From Elusimicrobiota bacterium (lineage in GTDB: Bacteria; Elusimicrobiota; Elusimicrobia; UBA1565; UBA9628), in contig DAIDHS010000006.1 in assembly GCA_027451985.1 (NCBI GenBank), forward strand, positions 23,344 through 87,343: a DNA stretch of 64,000 bases. Direction: 5' to 3'. Positions 49,070 to 55,685 of the stretch are shown one piece after another. The notes under the pieces are model-generated. The model had not been told where the DNA came from and did not search any database. It saw nothing but the letters and a program-made list of their open reading frames with translations. Each line of letters opens with the position of its first letter. Within the stretch, counting starts at the first letter, position 1. Position numbers and translations under genes: made by a program.

Positions 49070-50296
49070 CTAGACGCGGCTCTTGAGCAGATCCAGAATG
49101 GCCGCGACCGTCATCAGGTTTTTGGTGGCGCCCGCGTAAGAAAGCCGGTTGACCAAGCGCATGGCCGACTTCCAGGACATTCTGGCGTTTAAGAACTCCG
49201 TGCGGTAAGCTTCCAGCCTGCTTTCCAATCCCTGGCGCATGGCGGAGGGCCGCGCGTGACGGGCGCGCTCAAGTTTGGCCTGGTGGTAGCGCTCCATCGC
49301 GGCCTCGACCCGTGTCTTCGCGGCCTCGAGGCTCTCGTGTATCCGGTCGCCCCAAGCCATTCTCCAGCTCGGCTCCGTCGCGCTGATTTTATTTTTGGCC
49401 GCAGCCAGTTCGACCTGAAGCCGCGCCTTCAAGATATGCGGCTCCGGGGTTCTGCGCAGATTGGAAACTAGTCCCAGAGGACGCATCAGCGCGAGCCACC
49501 ACTTGGTCATGTCGAACTGGTACCAACGCACGCCGTTTCTCCAGTCGGAGGGGAACTTGTGGTGGAAGTTGTGGTAGCCCTCGCCGAACGTGAGCGGCGC
49601 CAGAGCCCAATTGTCGCGGGCCGAGTTGTCCAGGCTGTAGGGACGCTTGCCCCACAGATGCGCAGCCGAGTTGATGAGGAAGGTCATGTGATGGCCGAGC
49701 GTCACGCGCAAGAATCCACCCCACAAAAGGCCCGCCAGCAAGGGCCGGCCGACCAAATGCCCAAGAACGGCCGGAAAAACGAAGCCGGCCAGAACGACGA
49801 GAGCCAGATACCAGCGGTGCTGCCACATGAGGAGAGGATCTTTAAGCAGGTCCGGCACGCTTTGGTAGCGGGTCTTGGCGTCGCGGCTGTCCTTGTAGCA
49901 AATCCAGCCCATGTGGGCGTAGAACCCGCCGCGGTTGATGTTGTAGGGATCCGCATCGGTGTCCACGAAGCGGTGATGGTTCCGATGATCCGCGGTCCAA
50001 TTCAGGGCAGAATTCTCCACCGCAGCCGCGCCGAAAAACAAGTAAAAGAACTGCAGGATTTTCGAGGATTTGTGGCTCAGGTGGGCGTAATAGCGGTGGT
50101 AGCCTGCCGTGATGCTCAAGCCGCCGCAGACATACATCAGCGCGAAAACGGCTAGGTCAATCCAGGAAAACCCGTAGCGCCAAACATAAAGAGCCGTGCC
50201 AAAAATTCCAATGAGCGGCGTCAGCGTCAAAAAAGCGATGTTCGTATAATCAAAGGGCCTTTTTGAGGTTGCCATCTGCGGTTTTGCTTCAATCAT
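49070..50296 (-). CDS. Membrane fatty acyl-CoA desaturase
   Basis: His boxes HRYYAHLSHKS, HRNHHRFVDTDADPYN, GEGYHNFHHKFP. Confidence 0.93.
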   Translation of the reverse strand: MIEAKPQMATSKRPFDYTNIAFLTLTPLIGIFGTALYVWRYGFSWIDLAVFALMYVCGGLSITAGYHRYYAHLSHKSSKILQFFYLFFGAAAVENSALNWTADHRNHHRFVDTDADPYNINRGGFYAHMGWICYKDSRDAKTRYQSVPDLLKDPLLMWQHRWYLALVVLAGFVFPAVLGHLVGRPLLAGLLWGGFLRVTLGHHMTFLINSAAHLWGKRPYSLDNSARDNWALAPLTFGEGYHNFHHKFPSDWRNGVRWYQFDMTKWWLALMRPLGLVSNLRRTPEPHILKARLQVELAAAKNKISATEPSWRMAWGDRIHESLEAAKTRVEAAMERYHQAKLERARHARPSAMRQGLESRLEAYRTEFLNARMSWKSAMRLVNRLSYAGATKNLMTVAAILDLLKSRV

Positions 50297-50369
50297 TTTT
50301 TGCTCCTAAGAGGCCAATTCCCGTCTCAATTTAATGTTACACAATAACCAGTCTGGGCGCAATGTCGCG

Positions 50370-50398
50370 TTGACAACAATGGGCGGATGGGCTATAGT
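50370..50398 (+). promoter_or_regulatory. Consensus sigma70 promoter with near-zero leader
   Basis: TTGACA (50370-50375) - 17 bp - TATAGT (50393-50398) - 7 nt - ATG 50406. Confidence 0.8.
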
Positions 50399-50405
50399 CC
50401 TTTTC

Positions 50406-51068
50406 ATGGCGCGGGTGGAGGTGGGGCGGAAGCGAAAACTGGTTTTTTGGCTGATTTTGGGCGGTATTTGCGCCTTTTCCCTGCTGTTTCTCGTTCTGGG
50501 CCTATTGAGCTACCGTTCCGCTCTCATCACGCTGGCCCATCACGGTTCCGCGTCCGGCGAGAGCAGATTGGAGCCTTATTCCTCTAAACTCGGTGCCTTT
50601 GTCTATCTTCCTCGCGGCTGGGCGATCGAGCGGGACGATAAGGCCGCTTTGATCGCCAAAAACGAGGCGGGCGCCGTATTCTCGATCTATCCTGCGGGAA
50701 CCGGGATGGATGAAAAAAGCATTCAGGCGAGCTTTCCGTTGATTTCGGGGGTCCTGGGAAACATTCTCGCTCGCAACTGTCTGGATAAATCCTACTCCCG
50801 TCCCGAACTTAGGATGACGAACCTGCGAACCGGGCCGGTTTATTATTACTTCACTTCCTGCGCCGGCAAGGACGGCTCGTCCGTCGCGGTGGTGACCATG
50901 TCCTGGCTCAACGGCGTCGATGCCTACACGGGGGGGACATTTTTCAGAAACCCGACCATGGACATCCGAGGCTTGACCTTCGCCTTGCTGAGCGGCAATC
51001 CAGCGTGGCTTTCGGCCGCTAGGCAGGATGCGACGCCGTCCCAATACGCGCCGGAACCTCGCAGATAA
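50406..51068 (+). CDS. Membrane-anchored protein of unknown function
   Basis: TM segment VFWLILGGICAFSLLFLVLGLLSY then soluble domain; start set by promoter/ATG geometry. Confidence 0.65.
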   Translation: MARVEVGRKRKLVFWLILGGICAFSLLFLVLGLLSYRSALITLAHHGSASGESRLEPYSSKLGAFVYLPRGWAIERDDKAALIAKNEAGAVFSIYPAGTGMDEKSIQASFPLISGVLGNILARNCLDKSYSRPELRMTNLRTGPVYYYFTSCAGKDGSSVAVVTMSWLNGVDAYTGGTFFRNPTMDIRGLTFALLSGNPAWLSAARQDATPSQYAPEPRR

Positions 51069-52140
51069 AGACGCTTCCGCCCCCGGGATTGTCCTCCATG
51101 CGAATTGCCCCGCCCAGAGCGCGGCTGGCGATCTGGCAGAAATTGAGGCCGATGCCGCGTCCGCGGCCTTCCGTGGCCTCCGACCAAGAGGACGCGACAT
51201 ATTTCTCGAAAATGCGCGCTTTGATCGCTTGGGGCACCCCGGGTCCGCGGTCGGAAACGGCGAAGCGGACCGCCGCGCCCGATGGGGCGCAGGACAGAAT
51301 GATTTCCTGGCCCGCCCCCGAGGCATTGATCGCGTTGGAGAGCAGGTTGGCCAGGATGCGGAAAAGGAGCCCCGGATCGGTCACCAGAGTCCTGGGCTGG
51401 CCCGAATAGGCGACGCGCAGAAAAATGTTTTTTCTTCGGCAGCGGTTCTCAAACAGGTCTGTGGCTTTTTTCAAAACGACGCTAAGGCCGATCTCGGATG
51501 TCTCCGGGCGCAGTCCGATCTGATCGGCCTGCGAGACGTCGAGCAGGTCGTTGAGCATGAGTAGCATAAACTCCGCTGCGCTTTCCGCCTGGCGCAGAAA
51601 TTTGGAGGCATCGCCTTCGCTGATGAGTCCGCGGCTGGCGACGATTTCCAAGGTCCCCTTGATGGAGGCCGCCGGCGTGCGCAGATCGTGCAGGATCATG
51701 TCCGTCAGGTCCTGGCGCAGGCGCTCGCGGATTTCCAGGTCCAGGTTGCGGCGCGAAAGTTCATCGTGCGCGTGCTTGAGGCGCAGGTGGACCCGGACGC
51801 GCGCGAAAAGCTCTTCAACGGCAAAGGGTTTCTGGATGTAGTCGCAGGCGCCCAGTTTAAACCCTTCGAGGCGGGTCTTGATGTCGCCTTTGGCGGTCAA
51901 GAAAATAAAGGGCAGGTTCCGCCTCTCGCCCAGGCCGAGCCCGCGGCAGACATCAAAGCCGGTGCCGTCAGGCAGGCCGATATCGAGAAGAACCAAATCC
52001 GGCGCTTTTTTGGAGAAGGCCTTAAGCGCGTCCGCCACGGTTCCGCAGGCCTCAACGGCAAATTCGGCCTCTTCCAAGGCGCTTTTGGACAAGCTCTGGA
52101 TGACGGGATCGTCCTCCACAAGCAATATGGCATGGGCCAC
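51019..52140 (-). CDS. Response regulator-histidine kinase hybrid (REC-HisKA-HATPase)
   Basis: ILLVEDDPVIQSL, DLVLLDIGLPDGTGFDVC, MILHDLRTPAASIKG, SDRGPGVPQAI, GRGIGLNFC; GTG start. Confidence 0.92.
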   Translation of the reverse strand: MAHAILLVEDDPVIQSLSKSALEEAEFAVEACGTVADALKAFSKKAPDLVLLDIGLPDGTGFDVCRGLGLGERRNLPFIFLTAKGDIKTRLEGFKLGACDYIQKPFAVEELFARVRVHLRLKHAHDELSRRNLDLEIRERLRQDLTDMILHDLRTPAASIKGTLEIVASRGLISEGDASKFLRQAESAAEFMLLMLNDLLDVSQADQIGLRPETSEIGLSVVLKKATDLFENRCRRKNIFLRVAYSGQPRTLVTDPGLLFRILANLLSNAINASGAGQEIILSCAPSGAAVRFAVSDRGPGVPQAIKARIFEKYVASSWSEATEGRGRGIGLNFCQIASRALGGAIRMEDNPGGGSVFICEVPARIGTASHPA

Positions 52141-52147
52141 GGTGATC

Positions 52148-52175
52148 AGTGTAACAGATTCATGCTGTTTTTCAA
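52148..52175 (-). promoter_or_regulatory. Promoter of the hybrid kinase
   Basis: Minus strand TTGAAA - 16 bp - TACACT - 7 nt - GTG. Confidence 0.65.
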
Positions 52176-52250
52176 TGAGATTTTAGTCACACCGCGTCTT
52201 AGCCCCGCTGGACAAGATTGGGAGAGTTGAGTACCATTAAAGGCGAAATT

Positions 52251-53246
52251 ATGGGTGAAGCGCGGAAAATTTCTTATTGGACGATCGCGGTTTTTGCCGT
52301 GGCCGCCGTTTACTGGCACTTGAGTTCAGAACTGCTGGCCGGCCTTTTTTCCTTTTTCGTTCTGGACCTGACCTATAAGCGGCTTTCGCGCGTTCTGCCC
52401 CGCGCCGCGGCATTGTGGACGTCCCTCGCGGCGTTTCTCGTCTCCAGCGTGTTTTTTGCCTGGATGCTTGTGGTTTTCGTCAAGCTTTCGGTGACGCGCG
52501 TGCCCGAGATGATTTCCATCGTTTTGCCGCGCCTAAACGCCCTGGCGGCAAGTTACGGCCTGTCCATGCCCGGCAGCCTGGAGGATCTGCGGGCCGTCAT
52601 CATGTCCGCCGTGATGGAGCACGCCCAAGCGCTGACGACCACGAGCGGAGTGCTCACCCGCGAGATCTTTGAAATCCTGGTCAGCATTCTTGTGGCCATC
52701 CTTTACCATCTCAGCGCGTTCCGGAAGGAGAGGGCTTGGGCCAAGGCAGAACCCATGGGGGGATTTCTTGACTCGTTTTTGTCCGAGTTCTCGGAAAGAG
52801 TCCGGATTTTCGTTGGCGGCTTTGAGACGATCTTCCGAATTCAGATCCTGTTGGCTGCCTTCCGCTGCGCGGTCTTGGCGATCTTCCTTCTAGTGACCCG
52901 GCTGCCGTGGATGCACTTTTTGCTGGTGGCGACGTTCCTGCTCAGCGTGATTCCCATCGTCGGCGCCTTCACGAGCTCCGCTCTTATCCTGACTGCGGCG
53001 TTCACCGGCTCCTTCCACGCCGCTCTAGTGACTTTGGTTTTCCTACTTATTCTTCATCAGGCGGAATACCTGATCTACAGCCGTTTGGCAGGAACGGGGT
53101 TCGCTCTGCCGACCTGGATCATCCTTTTGGGCCTGCTCATTGGAGAGAAGTGTATGGGTCTTGCCGGGCTCATCCTGGCGCCCGTCGTCATTCATTATTT
53201 GCGCGAGGAAATGCGACGGGCGCCGGATGCCGCCGCGGCCGGCTGA
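52251..53246 (+). CDS. AI-2E-family (PerM-like) transporter
   Basis: Multiple TM segments; VIPIVGAFTSSALILTAAFTGS, AEYLIYSRLAGTGFALPTWIILLGLLIG. Confidence 0.85.
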   Translation: MGEARKISYWTIAVFAVAAVYWHLSSELLAGLFSFFVLDLTYKRLSRVLPRAAALWTSLAAFLVSSVFFAWMLVVFVKLSVTRVPEMISIVLPRLNALAASYGLSMPGSLEDLRAVIMSAVMEHAQALTTTSGVLTREIFEILVSILVAILYHLSAFRKERAWAKAEPMGGFLDSFLSEFSERVRIFVGGFETIFRIQILLAAFRCAVLAIFLLVTRLPWMHFLLVATFLLSVIPIVGAFTSSALILTAAFTGSFHAALVTLVFLLILHQAEYLIYSRLAGTGFALPTWIILLGLLIGEKCMGLAGLILAPVVIHYLREEMRRAPDAAAAG

Positions 53247-54707: not shown

Positions 54708-54736
54708 TTGCAATTTAAAGCGATCGACCCTATAAT
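54708..54736 (+). promoter_or_regulatory. Promoter of the DUF1460 gene
   Basis: TTGCAA (54708-54713) - 17 bp - TATAAT (54731-54736) - 7 nt - ATG 54744. Confidence 0.7.
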
Positions 54737-54743
54737 TATAAAC

Positions 54744-55685
54744 ATGATGCCCGCGCAGCGCAAAACGAATTTGATCGGCCGCGCCATTGTGCCCGCTTTA
54801 TTCCTCATCATGAGCGCTTGCACGCTTCCGGTCCGGGCCCAGGACTCCGCAAGCTTCTACGGCATGGCCCCGCAGGATATCGCCCAGGCGTTGCGCCGCA
54901 TCGGAAAAGAGCACCCTGATTTGCAGGGCCGCATCGTCGCGGTGAGTTCCCACTTTTTGGGCACGCCTTACGTTCTCGGCCCACTAGGCGAGGGCCCGCG
55001 AGGGGAGTTTGACCGCAATCCCATCGTCAGCTTCTCAGCCTTGGATTGCACGACGTTCGTTGAAGAGGTCATGGCGTTCTCCCTGGATCCCGATTTAGTG
55101 GGAGGGACGGCGCTCCTGCAAAAAATCCGCTACAAGGACGGCGTCATCTCCTACCAAACGCGCAACCATTTCCCGTCCGTGGACTGGATTCCCAACAATA
55201 TCAAGGCTGGCTTCATCAAGGACATCACCCGCGATCTCGCGGGTGACCAAACGCGCATCGCAACCAAGAGGATTTCCAAAAGAGCCTGGTACGCGGCCAA
55301 GAGCGCGGCGGATCTCCGGGGTATCTCGGGACTGAATCCCTCCCAGGAGGATGCCCTCGTTTCTAAATGGAGGGGCCTAGGCGTGTTTATGCCGGATCAG
55401 GAGGCCTCATTGCCTTACGTGCCCATCGACATCCTTCCCCAGGTCATCAATGACATCCCGTCCGGAACCATCGCGAATCTCGTGCGCGCGGACGATCCGT
55501 CCAAGCCGGTCTTAATCTCCCACCAACTGCTCATCATCCAGAAGGGCGGGCAGGCCTACGTGCGCGAAGCCGCCTACAAGGACAAAGTGAAGGATATTCC
55601 GGCCATGAAATACTTCGGCATCTACCAAAATTCCAAATGGCCGCTTCTGGGCGTCAATCTCGACGAAATCCTGCCCCGTCCCTAA
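54744..55685 (+). CDS. DUF1460 (N-acetylmuramoyl-L-alanine amidase-like) lipoprotein
   Basis: Lipobox FLIMSACT; ALDCTTFVEEVMAFS, RNHFPSVDWIPNNIKAGFIKDIT. Confidence 0.85.
   Translation: MMPAQRKTNLIGRAIVPALFLIMSACTLPVRAQDSASFYGMAPQDIAQALRRIGKEHPDLQGRIVAVSSHFLGTPYVLGPLGEGPRGEFDRNPIVSFSALDCTTFVEEVMAFSLDPDLVGGTALLQKIRYKDGVISYQTRNHFPSVDWIPNNIKAGFIKDITRDLAGDQTRIATKRISKRAWYAAKSAADLRGISGLNPSQEDALVSKWRGLGVFMPDQEASLPYVPIDILPQVINDIPSGTIANLVRADDPSKPVLISHQLLIIQKGGQAYVREAAYKDKVKDIPAMKYFGIYQNSKWPLLGVNLDEILPRP

Follow-up and report, generated by a model that had tools for sequence, protein, structure and literature searches.

That genes can be started without a leader is well known, the mechanism having been described in Actinobacteria and Deinococcus. 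Bacterial ribosomes can start on 5'-terminal AUGs without Shine-Dalgarno (SD) pairing (PMC10783764), and in bacterial leaderless genes a TA-like signal, TANNNT, precedes the start by about 12 bp (Zheng et al. 2011, PMC3160421). As summarised in PMC9581028, the leaderless transcription class of GeneMarkS-2 comprises 21.6% of bacterial species, with up to 40% of transcripts. Elusimicrobiota are absent from the text of Zheng et al. 2011 (PMC3160421), and the terms "Elusimicrobi" and "leaderless" co-occur in just two of the papers searched, one a treatment of SD use and the other, by its title, concerned with an M. tuberculosis chaperone.

In the window analysed here, a 64-kb stretch of DNA from an Elusimicrobiota MAG, direct reading of positions 50370-50408 on the forward strand gives TTGACA-N17-TATAGT-CCTTTTC-ATG. 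The -35 element TTGACA (50370-50375) agrees with the consensus at 6 of 6 positions in both sequence and pattern search, and the -10 element TATAGT (50393-50398) at 5 of 6; they are separated by a 17-bp spacer (50376-50392) without an extended -10 TGn, as a scan found no TG before the second hexamer. The discriminator CCTTTTC (50399-50405) is 7 nt long, and the usual distance of 6-8 nt between the -10 element and the transcription start site (TSS) places the predicted TSS at 50405 or 50406. With 11 of 12 positions in agreement and a spacer of 17, the hexamers are near consensus and lie within the 16-18 bp spacing of sigma-70-type promoters. The geometry claimed in the earlier note, TTGACA-17 bp-TATAGT-7 nt-ATG with a perfect -35 and optimal spacing, is therefore exact. 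This is the sole match without mismatch to the search pattern in the window and also its only 11/12 match of sigma-70 type, where 0.105 are expected per 64 kb according to a first-order Markov model with 200 simulated windows of 64 kb; in none of these 200 was an 11/12 match followed, 6-9 nt downstream, by a start codon opening an open reading frame (ORF) of at least 80 codons. Taken singly, the promoter at 50370 is ordinary.

The ATG at 50406 opens an ORF of 220 aa on the forward strand (50406-51068), characterized by coding score and hydropathy. A hexamer coding model was trained on 464 kb of the genome, made up of the window and 400 kb from other stretches, and it gives positions 50406-51020 a score of +0.176 per codon, above all wrong-frame control windows (maximum 0.042) but low among real genes, whose correct-frame scores have a 1st percentile of 0.13 and a median of 0.45. 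The possible upstream extension, 50334-50393, scores -0.34 per codon and is non-coding. Since the coding signal is absent upstream and present downstream, the ORF is coding and begins at about 50406. The protein has an RKRK motif followed by a hydrophobic segment at about residues 12-36, the one N-terminal helix seen in the hydropathy profile, and is predicted to consist of an N-terminal signal anchor and a soluble part of roughly 170 aa; the description "membrane protein" given earlier thus holds in the sense of a single-pass anchored protein. No match to the protein was found in Pfam, NCBIfam or the PDB, and homologs were found neither in 44 genomes of the family nor among GTDB genome contigs or plasmids, while 341 genomes of the phylum gave only weak matches that were unconvincing on inspection; it appears to be a lineage-specific orphan. 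A distant member of the phylum has a weak match to residues 116-156 (locus L018:1501-1623; tblastn against this single locus, E about 1e-4), whose frame is interrupted by stops and which is possibly a decayed relative. The single-sequence AlphaFold model, with a pLDDT of 48.6, is too poor for a fold search; at a guess, the order of strands and helices may suit a PsbP/Mog1-like domain.

The arrangement at 50370 recurs in the window and in the genome. Promoters matching at least 9 of 12 positions and followed at 6-9 nt by an ATG or GTG opening an ORF of at least 80 codons are observed 5 times in the window, against 0.225 expected, and the three strongest start-facing ones (at 50398, 54736 and, on the minus strand, 12406) all have the start exactly 7 nt away. 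A second clean example, TTGCAA-17-TATAAT-7-ATG, lies at 54708-54746 on the forward strand. In the 2.4-Mb genome the promoter pattern with 0-1 mismatch occurs 15 times, as compared with once for a reversed-pattern control; in 8 of these 15 the start codon follows the -10 element by 6-9 nt (7, 6, 9, 7, 9, 6, 6 and 8 nt), although the ORF at one of the eight, L002, has a weak coding score, and the remaining 7 are not of leaderless type, with start codons at 17-94 nt. Likewise, the pattern TTGACA-N16-18-TATANT-N5-9-RTG has 11 matches in the genome and none in its reversed control. The 50370 promoter had been singled out as the cleanest single example of leaderless geometry, which is right within the window but does not extend to the rest of the genome, where a few are equally clean. 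Strict -10 boxes show enrichment at 6-10 nt upstream of candidate ATG starts and at 6-7 nt upstream of GTG starts, but not before internal codons, and 33 of 348 sampled genes (9.5%) have a strict -10 box lying 5-9 nt from a possible start, versus 8 (2.3%) at the control distance of 25-29 nt. SD-like 4-mers stand before 26% of candidate ATGs and 9% of internal ATGs, so SD is used in the genome as well, which appears to combine SD-led with leaderless starts.

The best reading of ATG 50406, and a well-supported one, is that of a leaderless start. It is highly probable that a housekeeping promoter of sigma-70/RpoD-like type sets the TSS within one base of the A of this ATG, giving a leaderless mRNA for an orphan product with a single-pass membrane anchor. 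The -10 element stands 7 nt from the ATG, which would put the TSS on or next to the start codon; TATAGTCCTTTTC directly precedes the ATG and contains no purine-rich motif, hence no SD; the coding score switches on at that codon; and -10 elements are enriched in the genome at the leaderless distance. An RpoD-like holoenzyme would start transcription at the A of the ATG, which is more likely, or at C50405, as judged from the 7-nt discriminator and the C/A initiator step, leaving a leader of 0-1 nt. With the TSS at C50405 or A50406 there is no room for an SD, as the earlier note had also argued. Ribosomes would then start on the 5'-terminal AUG instead of using SD pairing, either by entry of the 70S ribosome or by entry of a 30S subunit preloaded with IF2 and fMet-tRNA; what is shown here is the promoter sequence, its geometry, the coding status of the ORF and the statistical recurrence in the genome and its relatives, while we infer that the promoter is active, where precisely transcription begins and by which route the ribosome enters. 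The first 40 nt of the predicted mRNA are weakly structured (z = +1.6), and over the 60-nt 5' region a fold of -15 kcal/mol is possible (z = -1.0), with the first 5 nt remaining free.

Other readings place the start elsewhere or do without the promoter. Translation from the same, real promoter might begin at GTG 50415 (50415-50417) or GTG 50421 (50421-50423), both in frame on the forward strand and both leaving the RKRK anchor intact, which would give a leader of 9-16 nt without SD; neither GTG, however, has an SD at a workable distance, ATG 50406 is a stronger start codon than either and sits at the predicted 5' end, and the -10 boxes of the genome's GTG starts cluster sharply at a distance of 6-7 nt and not at 16-22, so that these starts are considered unlikely. 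The longest ORF is opened by ATG 50334, whose 244-aa form would place the promoter-like sequence inside a coding region, but the added segment has the non-coding score reported above for 50334-50393, no SD lies upstream of this ATG, and the presence of an exact consensus promoter within the gene would be a coincidence, all of which makes this form extremely improbable.

The hexamers might also have arisen by chance or belong to a decayed promoter, the ORF being either driven from another site or silent, a reading with which the below-median coding score of the orphan gene would agree; the chance rate of such promoters is nevertheless very low and the same geometry recurs in the genome and in relatives, and we regard it as very unlikely. 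Initiation at ATG 50406 on a leaderless mRNA remains the preferred reading.

The leaderless -10 peak differs among relatives within the phylum. Among 16 genomes of the family, TATAATN{6,7}ATG occurs 666 times against 58 for the reversed pattern and TATAATN{14,15}ATG 197 times against 26. In one family relative of 68% GC (G006), whose gene calls were seeded with the G000 model, 13 ATG starts have a -10 box at exactly 6 nt, compared with about 0.5 per position elsewhere, and 22 of 184 genes have one at 5-9 nt, compared with 5 at 25-29 nt. In a genome from another family of the class (G063), 10 ATG starts have a -10 box at 6-7 nt, compared with roughly 1 per position, whereas a distant family of the phylum, represented by G335 (loci L083-L102), has no clear -10 peak, unlike G000 and G006. 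The comparison between genomes is an informal one, as the background is high in AT-rich members. These distributions favour, with some reservation, a view in which leaderless initiation is routine in one branch of Elusimicrobiota, affecting something like one gene in ten or more and marked by a clear -10 peak at 6-7 nt upstream of starts, and is weak or absent in other families, the phylum then recording its gain or loss.

In the case of the neighbouring genes, both types of start are found side by side. The divergent fatty acid desaturase gene (49070-50296, minus strand; Pfam FA_desaturase, E 5.8e-18) has an SD, AGGAG at 50303-50307 on the same strand, 6 nt from its ATG (50296-50294), and its SD-led start and the leaderless-type start of the orphan share one intergenic region. 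Its closest desaturase matches come from Elusimicrobia MAGs. Desaturase orthologs were found in 23 of 42 family genomes, and in most of those inspected (loci L044-L062) a -10 box stands 5-10 nt ahead of the start, the window copy having an SD instead; both initiation modes therefore occur for this gene family, and the mode has possibly been switched between orthologs. Many members of the family have the desaturase gene arranged divergently with that of an AI-2E-type transporter, which in the window lies 2 kb further on (52218-53246), with the orphan and a response-regulator/kinase gene in between. Across 49070-53246, an ancestral divergent pair of desaturase and AI-2E-family transporter appears to be split by the inserted genes for the orphan and a hybrid response regulator-histidine kinase. 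Because these two genes separate desaturase from transporter here, the orphan's promoter is placed on a lineage-specific insertion. The response-regulator/histidine-kinase gene (51019-52140) also has a leaderless-type start, TTGAAA-16-TACACT-7-GTG, at 52138-52175 on the minus strand. The orphan and kinase genes are convergent, and their 3' ends overlap by 50 bp (51019-51068). An Rfam search of the window returned no RNA.

ATG 50406 would offer a clean leaderless gene, open to testing, in a phylum whose molecular genetics has hardly been studied, and the difference between families of Elusimicrobiota could serve the study of how leaderless initiation is gained or lost. The analysis also indicates that SD-based gene finders will misplace starts in this phylum. 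When compared with known systems, TTGACA-17-TATAGT resembles the canonical sigma-70 promoter at 11 of 12 consensus positions, but the canonical promoter stands upstream of a leader, while the one at 50370 abuts the start codon. As in the leaderless genes of Zheng et al., the first T of the -10 element lies 13 nt before ATG 50406, no SD is present and many such genes occur in the genome, here of a host with 60% GC; ATG 50406 differs in having a perfect -35 element at optimal spacing as well. The mixture of SD-led and leaderless genes in one genome is shared with the leaderless class of GeneMarkS-2, whose mapped examples are mainly from Actinobacteria and Deinococcus, whereas the present case is known from sequence alone. 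What is modestly new would be a taxonomic extension, that is, the apparently routine use of leaderless starts in this branch of Elusimicrobiota by a mechanism that is itself known.
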